Source of the DNA: Aquamicrobium aerolatum DSM 21857
Lineage (GTDB): Bacteria > Pseudomonadota > Alphaproteobacteria > Rhizobiales > Rhizobiaceae
Direction of reading: 5' to 3'
Assembly (NCBI RefSeq): GCF_900113935.1
Contig: NZ_FORF01000004.1
Location: 1 to 64,000, forward strand
Length of the DNA stretch: 64,000 bases
Shown here: piece after piece, positions 47,023 through 49,502 of the stretch
Position numbering within the stretch: the first letter of the stretch is position 1
Layout: the number at the start of each line of letters is the position of its first letter
The notes under the pieces: model-generated
The model's database searches: none
Told to the model about the DNA's origin: nothing
The model's input: only the letters and a program-made list of their open reading frames with translations
Position numbers and translations under genes: made by a program

Positions 47023-47358
47023 ATGCGCGGCGAATTCATCGATCCGGGCGCGTTTCGTCATGAGCTGGTGCTGGAAACGGCAACGCTCACCGGCGACGGC
47101 GCGGGCGGGCATCAAAAGACATGGGCCGAGGCGGCGACTTTTCTGGCGCGGGTAGAGCCGGTGTCGGCGCAATCGCGTTTCGGCGCCGATCAGACGCTGG
47201 AGAGCGTGACGCATCGGGTGACGCTGCGGATGCGTGGCGGTGTCGAAGCGGGGATGCGGCTGCGGCGCGGAGGCCGGGTGTACGACATCGTGACGGTGCA
47301 CGATCCGGATGAAAGCGGACGCTATCTCGTCTGCCGCGTGCGCGAGGCGCTGCCATGA
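47023..47358 (+). CDS. GTA head closure/stopper protein (g7)
   Basis: 111 residues of the phage head-tail adaptor family (SPP1 gp16-like): LVLETATLTGDGAGGHQKTW (about 15-34), then ESVTHRVTLRMRGGVEAGMR and YDIVTVHDPDESGRYL. It begins directly after the g6 stop and overlaps the next small gene by 4 bases. Confidence 0.88.
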   Translation: MRGEFIDPGAFRHELVLETATLTGDGAGGHQKTWAEAATFLARVEPVSAQSRFGADQTLESVTHRVTLRMRGGVEAGMRLRRGGRVYDIVTVHDPDESGRYLVCRVREALP

Positions 47359-47513
47359 AGGTGACGATGCGGTTGACGCTCGACGATCTGGTGCGGGCGC
47401 TGCGCGGCAAGGCGCACCAGCTCGCCGAAGAAGTGGAGGCCGGGGAGCGCCGCGTTGATGCGGCAGCAACCGGGCGAGTGAAGGAGGCACGCGATGACCT
47501 CACCGGCACTTGA
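47355..47513 (+). CDS. small GTA gene between g7 and g8
   Basis: 52 residues. It starts MKVTMRLTLDDLVRALRG and ends ARDDLTGT, with a helical charged centre. It overlaps g7 by 4 bases and g8 by 20 bases, with the strong g8 ribosome site inside it. Its phase and coupling argue for a real gene, but it is short and I know of no family for it. Role unknown. Confidence 0.5.
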   Translation: MKVTMRLTLDDLVRALRGKAHQLAEEVEAGERRVDAAATGRVKEARDDLTGT

Positions 47514-47967: not shown

Positions 47968-48381
47968 GTGGGAGCACAGAAGGGCAAGGATCTGCTGTTG
48001 AAGATCGACAGCACGGGGGCGGGGGTGTTCGTCACCGTGGCGGGGCTGCGCACCAAGCGGCTTTCGTTCAACAGCGAGACGGTGAACATCACGGATTCCG
48101 AATCCGTCGGGCGCTGGCGTGAACTGCTGGGTGGCGCAGGGGTGCAGCGCGCGTCGTTGAGCGGGGCGGGGATCTTCAAGGATGCGCAGTCGGATGCGCT
48201 GATCCGGGCGAATTTCTTCGGCAGCGTCATCGTTGCCTGGCAGATCGTGGTGCCGGATTTCGGCATCGTCGAAGGACCGTTTCAGGTGACGGCGCTGGAA
48301 TATACCGGCAATCATGATGGCGAAATCACCTTCGACATGGCGCTGGAATCGGCTGGCGCGCTGACCTTCGGAGCGGCGTGA
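47968..48381 (+). CDS. GTA major tail tube protein (g9)
   Basis: 137 residues from a GTG at 47968 with GGGAGG upstream; the earlier ATG is in the repeat-rich gap. It matches the TP901-1-type major tail protein family: GKDLLLKIDSTGAGVFVTVA, SFNSETVNITDSESVGRWRE, with the C-terminal EITFDMALESAGALTFG. It forms the tail tube rings. Confidence 0.9.
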   Translation: MGAQKGKDLLLKIDSTGAGVFVTVAGLRTKRLSFNSETVNITDSESVGRWRELLGGAGVQRASLSGAGIFKDAQSDALIRANFFGSVIVAWQIVVPDFGIVEGPFQVTALEYTGNHDGEITFDMALESAGALTFGAA

Positions 48382-48713
48382 TGGCGAATGCGCGGCGCGG
48401 GGAAATCGAGGCTGTCATCGACGGGCGGGCGCAGGTGCTGTGCCTGACACTGGGGGCGCTGGCGGAACTGGAGACGGCGTTCGCGGTCGACAATCTGGCG
48501 GCGCTGGCGCAGCGTTTTGCGACCGGAGAACTCGCCGCGCGCGATCTGATCCGGGTTATCGGCGCGGGGTTGCGCGGCGGGGGCGCCAGCGTCAGCGACG
48601 ACGAGGTGGCGGCGATGCAGTTTGACGGCGGGGTGGCGGGCTGCGCGCAAATGGTGGGCGCGTTGCTGGCTATCACGTTCGGCACGGCGGAGCGCGTACC
48701 AGCGGACCCCTGA
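48381..48713 (+). CDS. GTA tail assembly chaperone (g10)
   Basis: 110 residues from the ATG at 48381, which overlaps the g9 stop by one base. The family pattern is RRGEIEAVIDGRAQVLCLTL, then LGALAELETAFAVDNLAALA and VIGAGLRGGGASVSDDEVAA (GTA TAC family). It would coat the tape measure while the tail forms. It stops at TGA 48711-48713, where a -1 open frame continues (next entry). Confidence 0.88.
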   Translation: MANARRGEIEAVIDGRAQVLCLTLGALAELETAFAVDNLAALAQRFATGELAARDLIRVIGAGLRGGGASVSDDEVAAMQFDGGVAGCAQMVGALLAITFGTAERVPADP

Positions 48714-48943
48714 ACGCCGCGACAGGCGAAGCGCGCCGGTTTCCGTGGGACGATGTGATCGCCCTCGGGCTGGGCCTGTTGCGGCTATCGTCGCGCGATT
48801 TTTGGGCGATGACGCCGCTGGAGCTTTCGCATCTAGTGCGTGCCCACTCAGGCGGGATTGTAGAAGCGCCGGAGCGCAGCGCCGTCGAGACGCTGATGAA
48901 ACTCTTTCCCGATGTGAACAAGGGCCAAATTCATGGCGGATGA
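48710..48943 (+). CDS. GTA second tail chaperone segment (rcc01693-like, DUF2376), probably reached by -1 frameshift
   Basis: In the -1 frame relative to g10 the sequence reads LNAATGEARRFPWDDVIALG and LGLLRLSSRDFWAMTPLELS, the conserved N-terminus of the rcc01693/Phage_TAC_6 family, and ends at 48943. The conserved part begins before the only normal start, a GTG at 48755, and no ATG or ribosome site precedes it. At 48707-48710 there are four C followed by TGA, so a tRNA on CCC can slip back one base onto CCC at the stop. That would make a fused g10 product; independent initiation from CTG at 48710 or GTG at 48755 is the alternative. Confidence 0.7.
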   Translation: MNAATGEARRFPWDDVIALGLGLLRLSSRDFWAMTPLELSHLVRAHSGGIVEAPERSAVETLMKLFPDVNKGQIHGG

Positions 48944-49502
48944 CAACGCGCGCGTGCAGGTGCGCATCGAGGCGGACACGCGGCCTTTCACCGATGCGAT
49001 GGCCGATCTTGGCCGGTTGTCGGCGTCGTTCGGCACCCAGCTGAGTGGCGCGATGAAGGACGCGGTGGTCGGTGGCAAGTCGCTGGAGGACGTGTTGCGG
49101 CGGGTGGGGATGAACCTTGCCGGCATGGCGCTGAACCAGGGGATGAAGCCGCTGACCAGTCTCGTCAGCGGCCGGATGGGCAGCATTTTGCCATTTGCCA
49201 ATGGTGGCGTCGTCGGCGGCGGCGTGACGCCTTTCGCCAGCGGCGGGGTGGTCGCCGCGCCGACCTATTTTCCGATGGGCGGGGGCCGCACCGGACTGAT
49301 GGGCGAGGCGGGGGCGGAAGCGATCCTGCCGCTGCAGCGCGGGCCGGACGGGCAGCTGGGCGTGGCGGCGGGCGGCGGCGGGCGCGGGGTCAATGTCGTG
49401 TTCAATGTGAGCACGCAGGACGCCGCCTCGTTTCGCAAATCGGAAGCGCAGATCACCGGCATGCTGGCGCGCGCGGTGTCGTGCGGCTCAAGAACTCTGT
49501 GA
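48933..49502 (+). CDS. GTA tape measure protein (g11)
   Basis: 189 residues, very short for a tape measure but usual for GTA tails. It has DNARVQVRIEADTRPFTDAM at the start, an Ala/Gly-rich middle (FANGGVVGGGVTPFASGGVV) and the family end FRKSEAQITGMLARAV. Length implies a short tail. It overlaps the preceding gene by 11 bases. Confidence 0.88.
   Translation: MADDNARVQVRIEADTRPFTDAMADLGRLSASFGTQLSGAMKDAVVGGKSLEDVLRRVGMNLAGMALNQGMKPLTSLVSGRMGSILPFANGGVVGGGVTPFASGGVVAAPTYFPMGGGRTGLMGEAGAEAILPLQRGPDGQLGVAAGGGGRGVNVVFNVSTQDAASFRKSEAQITGMLARAVSCGSRTL

Follow-up and report, generated by a model that had tools for sequence, protein, structure and literature searches.

A candidate programmed -1 ribosomal frameshift between the tail chaperone genes g10 and g10.1 of a gene transfer agent cluster in Aquamicrobium aerolatum

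The GTA cluster and the g10/g10.1 junction

Gene transfer agents (GTAs) are tame, phage-like DNA carriers. In the window, i.e. the whole stretch of 64,000 nucleotides analysed here (A. aerolatum DSM 21857, contig NZ_FORF01000004.1, positions 1 to 64,000), an RcGTA-type cluster was identified by profile matches to the portal, prohead protease, HK97 capsid, distal tail protein, baseplate hub and NlpC/P60 peptidase. The cluster also contains terminase, connector, head completion, tail tube, g10, g10.1 and tape measure genes, and the GTA 'megatron' baseplate protein was matched with 1541.6 bits. The order g9-g10-g10.1-g11 corresponds to PF06199, PF11836, PF09550 and RcGTA_tape (the tape match lying under its cut-off), placing two chaperone-type ORFs between the tube and tape genes (Table 1). 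The tape measure ORF encodes 189 aa, and its N-terminus looks short because the match starts at profile position 40. A 52-codon ORF at 47355–47513 begins in an ATGA overlap behind g7 and runs into the first part of g8.

Table 1. Features of the g10/g10.1 region (positions in the window)
Feature	Position	Strand	Basis and remarks
g9, major tail (tube) protein, directly 5' of g10	47968..48381	+	PF06199 2.5e-45, TIGR02126 1.4e-32; start GTG read by eye
g10, GTA tail assembly chaperone, 0 frame	48381..48713	+	PF11836 5e-29; stop TGA 48711-48713
GGAG, Shine-Dalgarno-like, 11 nt before heptamer	48689..48692	+	Sequence; family-wide enrichment
Candidate slippery heptamer G_GAC_CCC	48704..48710	+	Sequence and family conservation
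g10.1, -1 frame after the proposed slip	48710..48943	+	PF09550 3.6e-13, TIGR02216 1e-15; first codon CTG read as Leu, 77 codons before stop
0-frame TGA stop of g10	48711..48713	+	Directly behind heptamer
Spacer, heptamer to stem, 5 nt	48711..48715	+	
Stem, 5' arm (12-bp stem)	48716..48727	+	GCCGCGACAGGC
Loop, 46 nt	48728..48773	+	Holds the FPW codons; inner pairing in single-sequence fold
Stem, 3' arm	48774..48785	+	GCCTGTTGCGGC; within codons of conserved G-L-L-R-L of g10.1
g11, GTA tail tape measure protein, 3' of the g10/g10.1 pair	48933..49502	+	NF058675 RcGTA_tape 161.9 bits, under cut-off 220

The stop codon of g9 overlaps the probable g10 start, ATG 48381 (TGATG); the start given in the ORF list is GTG 48378. 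The AlphaFold model of g10 had a mean pLDDT of 86.3 and gave weak matches to a viral library (best E 0.002, none at E ≤0.001), some of them annotated as tail assembly chaperones. A PDB sequence search gave no match, and a PDB fold search returned nothing below E 3. For g10.1, the TIGR02216 score was 57.7 bits (cut-off 56.1) and the conserved domain spans 48740–48913. One terminator-like match was found at 48780 (0.5 in shuffles).

The 3' end of g10 reads GTA CCA GCG GAC CCC TGA, ending at 48713, with CCCC at 48707–48710 exactly as described in an earlier note made from this DNA alone. The note had also held that the -1 frame continues into a conserved protein beginning upstream of any normal start, and this is what the sequence contains: the -1 frame is open from 48626 to a stop at 48943, the FPW of the g10.1 domain lies at 48740, and no ATG, GTG or TTG is present in the open -1 frame of the window upstream of FPW. 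The first such codon, GTG 48755, falls within the conserved domain. The NTG codons upstream of FPW in this frame number two, both CTG; the one at 48710 overlaps the TGA, and the other lies 70 nt before the stop; stop-start overlaps of the ATGA or GTGA type are absent from the window junction, where CTG alone overlaps the stop. The F, P and W of the F-P-W-D-D stretch were invariant or nearly so in an alignment of 18 sequences.

Frame relation and slippery site among relatives

PF11836 was found in 48 of 60 relatives and PF09550 in 246/397 genomes at the level of the order, 140/199 of the family, 7/8 of the genus and 45/385 of the class (own genome counted throughout). Named genome contigs were scanned, and of 404 loci the best 80 were kept; the junctions compared represent part of the loci found, both domains being located by an HMM-based pipeline. 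In loci L001–L217 plus the window both domains were present in 218/218 cases, and removal of repeats identical over 100 nt, with the window counted once, left 205 unique junctions (discovery set). A further 109 loci (L218–L326) yielded 104 junctions, 82 of them new, as a hold-out set that is not phylogenetically independent, since it shares families with the discovery set. The resulting 287 unique g10/g10.1 junctions are related sequences and the counts below are therefore not independent.

The g10.1 domain was in the -1 frame relative to g10 in 261 of the 287 junctions (discovery 189/205, hold-out 72/82), and this family comparison supports the proposal of the earlier note that two tail chaperone genes, the second lacking a normal start, may be joined by a -1 frameshift. 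The junctions could be divided into five modes: i) a heptamer N_NnC_CCY before FPW (152), ii) a -1 overlap extending beyond FPW (32), iii) an ATGA/GTGA start (47), iv) another frame (26), and v) other -1 junctions (30). Among the 152 heptamer junctions, 39 lack any ATG, GTG or TTG in the open -1 frame upstream of the domain, and in 9 NTG and ATN codons are missing altogether; the other 113 contain at least one ATG, GTG or TTG, often a TTG over the stop. In the 32 junctions of the second mode, another X_XXY_YYZ heptamer was present in 28, and 25 are without ATG, GTG or TTG. The 0 frame of g10 passes FPW in L042, L054, L185, L189, L200, L202, L209, L302, L305, L314 and L317, which carry CCCTTTCCCT, i.e. 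two overlapping heptamers. A few of the 26 other-frame junctions look like indels, and two of these (L176 and L277) retain the heptamer. Homologues with a proper ATG, named in the earlier note as evidence that would speak against the shift, do occur in the form of the 47 ATGA/GTGA junctions, but they belong to other lineages than that of the window; the class is without the heptamer by construction, and a strong helix (≥9 bp) at the stem position (see below) was found in 3/33 of its discovery members. To us they represent a second state that such junctions can take elsewhere, and they do not refute the shift in the lineage of the window.

CCT or CCC stands directly before the g10 stop in 111 of the 261 unique -1 junctions. 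As CCT and CCC make up 5.5% and 25.3%, respectively, of the Pro codons within g10 (91 Pro codons counted), this recurrence is more than chance. In these 111 junctions the preceding base is C in 110, and n1=n2 in 105, meaning that the base before the penultimate codon equals the first base of that codon; the baseline for codons inside g10 is 10–31%, depending on the first base. By P-site codon, the rule n1=n2 held in the discovery set for AAC (50/51), GAC (18/18), CGC (5/6), GGC (3/3) and others, compared with 8/80, 171/745 and 204/696 for AAC, GAC and CGC, respectively, inside g10. The constraint also extends four bases further upstream.

Two points of the earlier note are changed by these data. 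A requirement for TGA is contradicted by the stops of the 111 junctions (TGA 93, TAG 11, TAA 7) and by the A_AAC_CCN junctions, in 23/73 of which the stop is not directly behind the heptamer, indicating that conservation concerns the site rather than the stop, which may nevertheless contribute. Conservation of CCCCTGA, the check that the note had suggested, was examined across homologues, and since the tetramer mostly ends in T, the conserved unit is the heptamer and not CCCCTGA itself.

Heptamers of the form N_NnC_CCY (152/261 -1 junctions) comprise 112 in the discovery and 40 in the hold-out set, most of them the canonical A_AAC_CCY (71/112 and 31/40). The window heptamer GGACCCC has A at n3 and hence departs from the canonical X_XXY_YYZ (n1=n2=n3, n4=n5=n6), of which it is a variant. 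Its class, G_GAC_CCY, allows good re-pairing at the first position only; by the pairing rules, the P-site move from GAC to GGA would leave the second position with a G-U pair and the third one mismatched. Heptamers vary between lineages, including A_AAC_CCY, G_GAC_CCY, C_CGC_CCY, C_CCT_TTC_CCT and G_GGA_AAG. The last, lambda's own slippery site, was present in at least six other junctions of the set; in L003, L022, L024, L203, L217 and L308 it is located close to the stop of g10, and g10.1 is in the -1 frame.

Elements flanking the heptamer

Two features absent from the earlier note were found around the heptamer, a Shine-Dalgarno (SD)-like element upstream and a covarying stem downstream. The mean anti-SD pairing energy was -6.0 kcal/mol at -18 to -9 and -6.2 kcal/mol at -15 to -6, versus -3.1 and -3.2 kcal/mol in codon shuffles. 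Pairing was strongest 18 to 6 nt before the heptamer, and weaker than in the shuffles directly before it and more than 21 nt away. An SD-like match of at least 4 nt was found in 94/112 discovery and 26/40 hold-out junctions, versus 36/112 and 6/40 in the region 45 nt upstream, with spacings to the heptamer ranging from -2 to 22 and most commonly 10 (discovery) or 9 (hold-out). The available portion of a review gives 9–14 nt for upstream SD-like stimulators of -1 shifts (PMC5009743).

The predicted window stem contains one G-U among its 12 bp and is part of the minimum-energy fold of 48711–48799 (-45.2 kcal/mol), persisting in a 171-nt context. Since the folding-energy z-scores (-1.90 for 48711–48799 and -1.48 for 171 nt) are modest and unremarkable alone, the case for this stem rests on covariation. 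Among the relatives, GCCGC(A/G)G recurs five bases behind the heptamer: of the 84 discovery junctions with an adjacent stop, 82, 82, 81, 81 and 76 have G, C, C, G and C, respectively, at these places, a third codon position being among them, and the element keeps the same distance from the heptamer in junctions with the stop elsewhere. Its pairing partner is CTGCGGC, within the codons for L-R-L in g10.1. In the heptamer junctions, which were selected on neither stem arm, the first 7 pairs were complete in 71/112 (discovery) and 34/40 (hold-out), with totals of 1 and 0 over 12 slid registers, and at least 10 contiguous pairs inward from the first pair were present in 50/112 and 18/40. Folding gave a helix ≥9 bp long at the stem position in 81/112 and 23/40 versus 9/447 control windows; neither the 7-bp L-R-L pairing nor a 9-bp helix was found in 19/112 and 4/40.

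Pairing was retained through changes at several positions. The outer pair of the 7-bp core was G-C in 67, A-T in 6, T-A in 6 and G-T in 6 of 99 sequences, the T-A cases entailing Leu-to-Met protein changes; in this 99-sequence group the conservation of the 5' arm is partly by construction, because that arm was selected on at least 4 of 5 matches to GCCGC. The pair h+13/b+37 was AT 32, GT 30, CG 19 and TA 7 in the discovery set (90/112 paired) and paired in just 25/40 of the hold-out set, where 11 are T-T; also in the hold-out set, h+12/b+38 was GC 13, TG 11 and CG 10 (38/40 paired) and h+16/b+34 was paired in 24/40. The observed pairing was never reached when arms were swapped among sequences (2000 trials, either set), nor when partners of the 7-bp core were shuffled in the 99-sequence group (10000 shuffles). 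In 34 ungapped sequences, 91.7% of the cells of the 12-bp stem pair, versus at most 59.1% in slid versions, and the covariation score was 0.160 versus 0.103 in shuffles (0/500 as high); two of five covariation measures on these 34 sequences, both-side changes (222/500) and further pair types (96/500), were not above the shuffles. RNAalifold found the 7-bp core unprompted. At h+0 to h+4, where the stem might run on into the stop codon, 46–63 of the 99 sequences pair per position. A codon comparison gave p values of 1.4e-5 at codon 14, 9e-8 at codon 15 and 1.1e-7 at codon 16, the smallest value elsewhere being 0.006, and is partly circular because its 82 sequences were chosen for pairing; in the unfiltered 99, the Arg codon of L-R-L is CGG in 83/89 versus 41/72 elsewhere.

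A local GCCGC/GCGGC hairpin within the linker was considered as the general stem and rejected, as it does not hold generally. By eye, a local linker hairpin lies near the same place in roughly a dozen non-pairing junctions (e.g. L113, L090 and L086), and folding placed linker helices at offset 6 in L013, L079, L131 and L179 and at offset 1 in L113 and L083. With the exception of L083, these loci were noted as having a linker hairpin of their own, the L-R-L codons being not fully paired in most.

A covariance model of the element, R1, matched the junction in its own genome with E 1.9e-18, the next match having E 0.59 (150 of 4580 first-look candidates scored). Across 60 genomes, own included, 26 had one match each, all at or beside g10/g10.1, some of these genomes matching by construction since they supplied R1 sequences. 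Rfam gave no match up to E 1, and phage records gave one weak match. Within the genus, 7 of 8 genomes have PF09550, and in each of these 7 the -1 frame is open over the domain and the junction is matched by R1. In these 7 junctions the stem is kept in all, with 6 to 12 contiguous pairs and including an A-T to C-G swap at one pair, and heptamers with n1=n2 are present in 6. In the seventh, L025 (genome G003), the stem is kept (11 contiguous pairs, R1 69.7 bits) and the place of the heptamer reads GCGCACC, which is non-slippery; this represents either natural loss of the heptamer or another mode. In the remaining genome (G006), PF11836 matches in two pieces only and PF09550 gave no match; its tail chaperone pair looks degraded or divergent.

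Interpretation and comparison with known systems

The gene order, the frame relation, the missing start, the tandem slippery site, the stem with its spacing and the upstream element, all read from sequence, jointly fit a programmed -1 ribosomal frameshift, and we consider it very probable that such a shift, be it of one tRNA or of two, yields gp10 together with its fusion to gp10.1. At the presumed efficiency, most ribosomes would read g10 to the TGA and release gp10. A smaller share, retained between the GGAG on the 5' side and the 12-bp stem on the 3' side, would slip back by one base, with tRNA-Asp and tRNA-Pro moving together on G_GAC_CCC (to GGA CCC), and would read on through CTG AAC GCC to give a fusion some 187 residues long. 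If the lambda scheme applies, the tape measure protein (g11) would be coated by gp10, and the less abundant fusion would bring in the tail tube protein (g9).

Translation might instead terminate at the TGA and restart at the overlapping CTG (TTG in many relatives), giving a separate gp10.1. Such reinitiation at NTGA was initially preferred: CTG 48710 is in frame and overlaps the stop, the 93 TGA stops of the 111 CCY-stop junctions each create a TTG or CTG, ATGA/GTGA overlaps exist in the 47 junctions described above, and an SD-like element lies upstream. However, the 18/111 junctions with TAA or TAG, in which the NTG is removed, retain the CCY motif, and this motif and the GCCGC element remain equidistant where the stop lies elsewhere. 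Reinitiation also leaves the n1=n2 rule, the fixed 5-nt spacing and the covariation unexplained, and it would have to use an SD-like element situated mostly about 13–20 nt from the NTG (the spacing to the heptamer plus 6), which is far for a usual start. It was dropped on the grounds of the TAA/TAG stops, the n1=n2 rule, the spacing and the covariation, and we now regard it as quite improbable. Scarcely credible is the reading that gp10.1 is unexpressed or starts at GTG 48755, the junction being a decayed or mis-sequenced gene overlap. GTG 48755 is indeed the first standard start in frame, but a start there would remove F-P-W-D-D with its nearly invariant residues, and the recurrence of the same frame relation in 261/287 unique junctions, like the open -1 frame with an R1 match in the genus, also speaks against this reading.

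How many tRNAs move in the proposed frameshift is a separate matter. In a single-tRNA slip, as proposed in the earlier note, peptidyl-tRNA-Pro would move from CCC or CCT to CCC with the stop codon occupying the A site; the -1 shift itself is supported here, and the site looks like a seven-base tandem one. In favour of the single slip are CCY directly before the stop in 111/261 junctions, the 6/111 in which n1 differs from n2, and the importance of a nearby stop at the G_GAU_UUU site of pea enation mosaic virus, reported in the available portion of PMC5009743. On the other hand, n1=n2 in 105/111 is unexplained unless the preceding tRNA re-pairs too, and A_AAC_CCN is kept in the 23/73 junctions that have no directly following stop. 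We therefore think it unlikely that one tRNA moves alone, a chance that overlaps with that of the frameshift as a whole. The stop may contribute on top of tandem slippage. More tentatively, and with considerable doubt, we suggest that the element could be a modular recoding cassette of domesticated GTAs, its parts (heptamers, and L-L-R-L codons or a linker hairpin as the 3' stem partner) being exchanged with frame and product kept, and that the adjacent stop might take part in such a way that the gp10:fusion ratio follows termination efficiency at GTA induction.

If the proposed frameshift is real, g10 and g10.1 of many Hyphomicrobiales GTAs would form a single recoded gene, it would be clear how the conserved domain of the second chaperone can do without a start codon, and a lambda-like model for GTA tail assembly would follow. 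An RNA stem that codes for protein as well, and that compensatory change has maintained in an element owned by the host, would be evidence that these GTAs are still selected to build tails. R1 could help to annotate the element, which is short enough for a plasmid reporter.

In the GTA and frameshift literature searched, mostly outside subscription journals and in part as partial texts, no report of a frameshift in a GTA tail chaperone was found. According to the portions available, a +1 shift has been proposed in the hydrolase of a Wolbachia element (PMC10299305), and a frameshift is usual in the chaperone genes of R. capsulatus phages (PMC8601537). The pair of the window belongs to the same gene families as g10/g10.1 of the Rhodobacter capsulatus RcGTA, TIGR02216 being the 'rcc01693 family' of NCBI; unlike the reading proposed here, g10.1 is named as a gene of its own in the available part of PMC9765227, and a term search of the main text of the RcGTA structure paper PMC7296036 found no g10, chaperone or frameshift. 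The -1 motif 'twoonefour' of PRFect, listed among the backward-shift motifs of annotated phage frameshifts in the part of PMC10885494 consulted, seems by its name to fit GG-A-CCCC; that motif was proposed from phage annotation, whereas most GTA heptamers are canonical A_AAC_CCY. In pea enation mosaic virus, as excerpted from PMC5009743, the P-site Asp codon of G_GAU_UUU likewise slips to GGA with a stop close behind, but this is a plant RNA virus read by eukaryotic ribosomes, with the stop 3 nt away.

The E. coli dnaX cassette, in the same excerpt, consists of an upstream SD-like stimulator, a heptamer and a downstream 11-bp stem, and the window has features of this three-part arrangement, with the SD-like element at 11 nt and the 12-bp stem at a spacer of 5. 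The dnaX gene is a different one in which the shift causes truncation, whereas the outcome in the window would be a C-terminal extension; the window stem also differs in closing a 46-nt loop and in having conserved protein-coding sequence as its 3' arm. The gpG/gpGT pair of lambda differs from the window pair in several respects: the window site is G_GAC_CCC directly before the stop, it is accompanied by a covarying stem and an SD-like element, and it belongs to a GTA and not a phage. The lambda products have a ratio of 30:1. In lambda, a tail chaperone and a longer -1 product arising near the end of the first gene act with the tape measure protein (PMC5009743, in part); a pair of this kind is predicted for the window, and this likeness suggests that g10/g10.1 may work like the lambda G/GT family of frameshifted chaperones.
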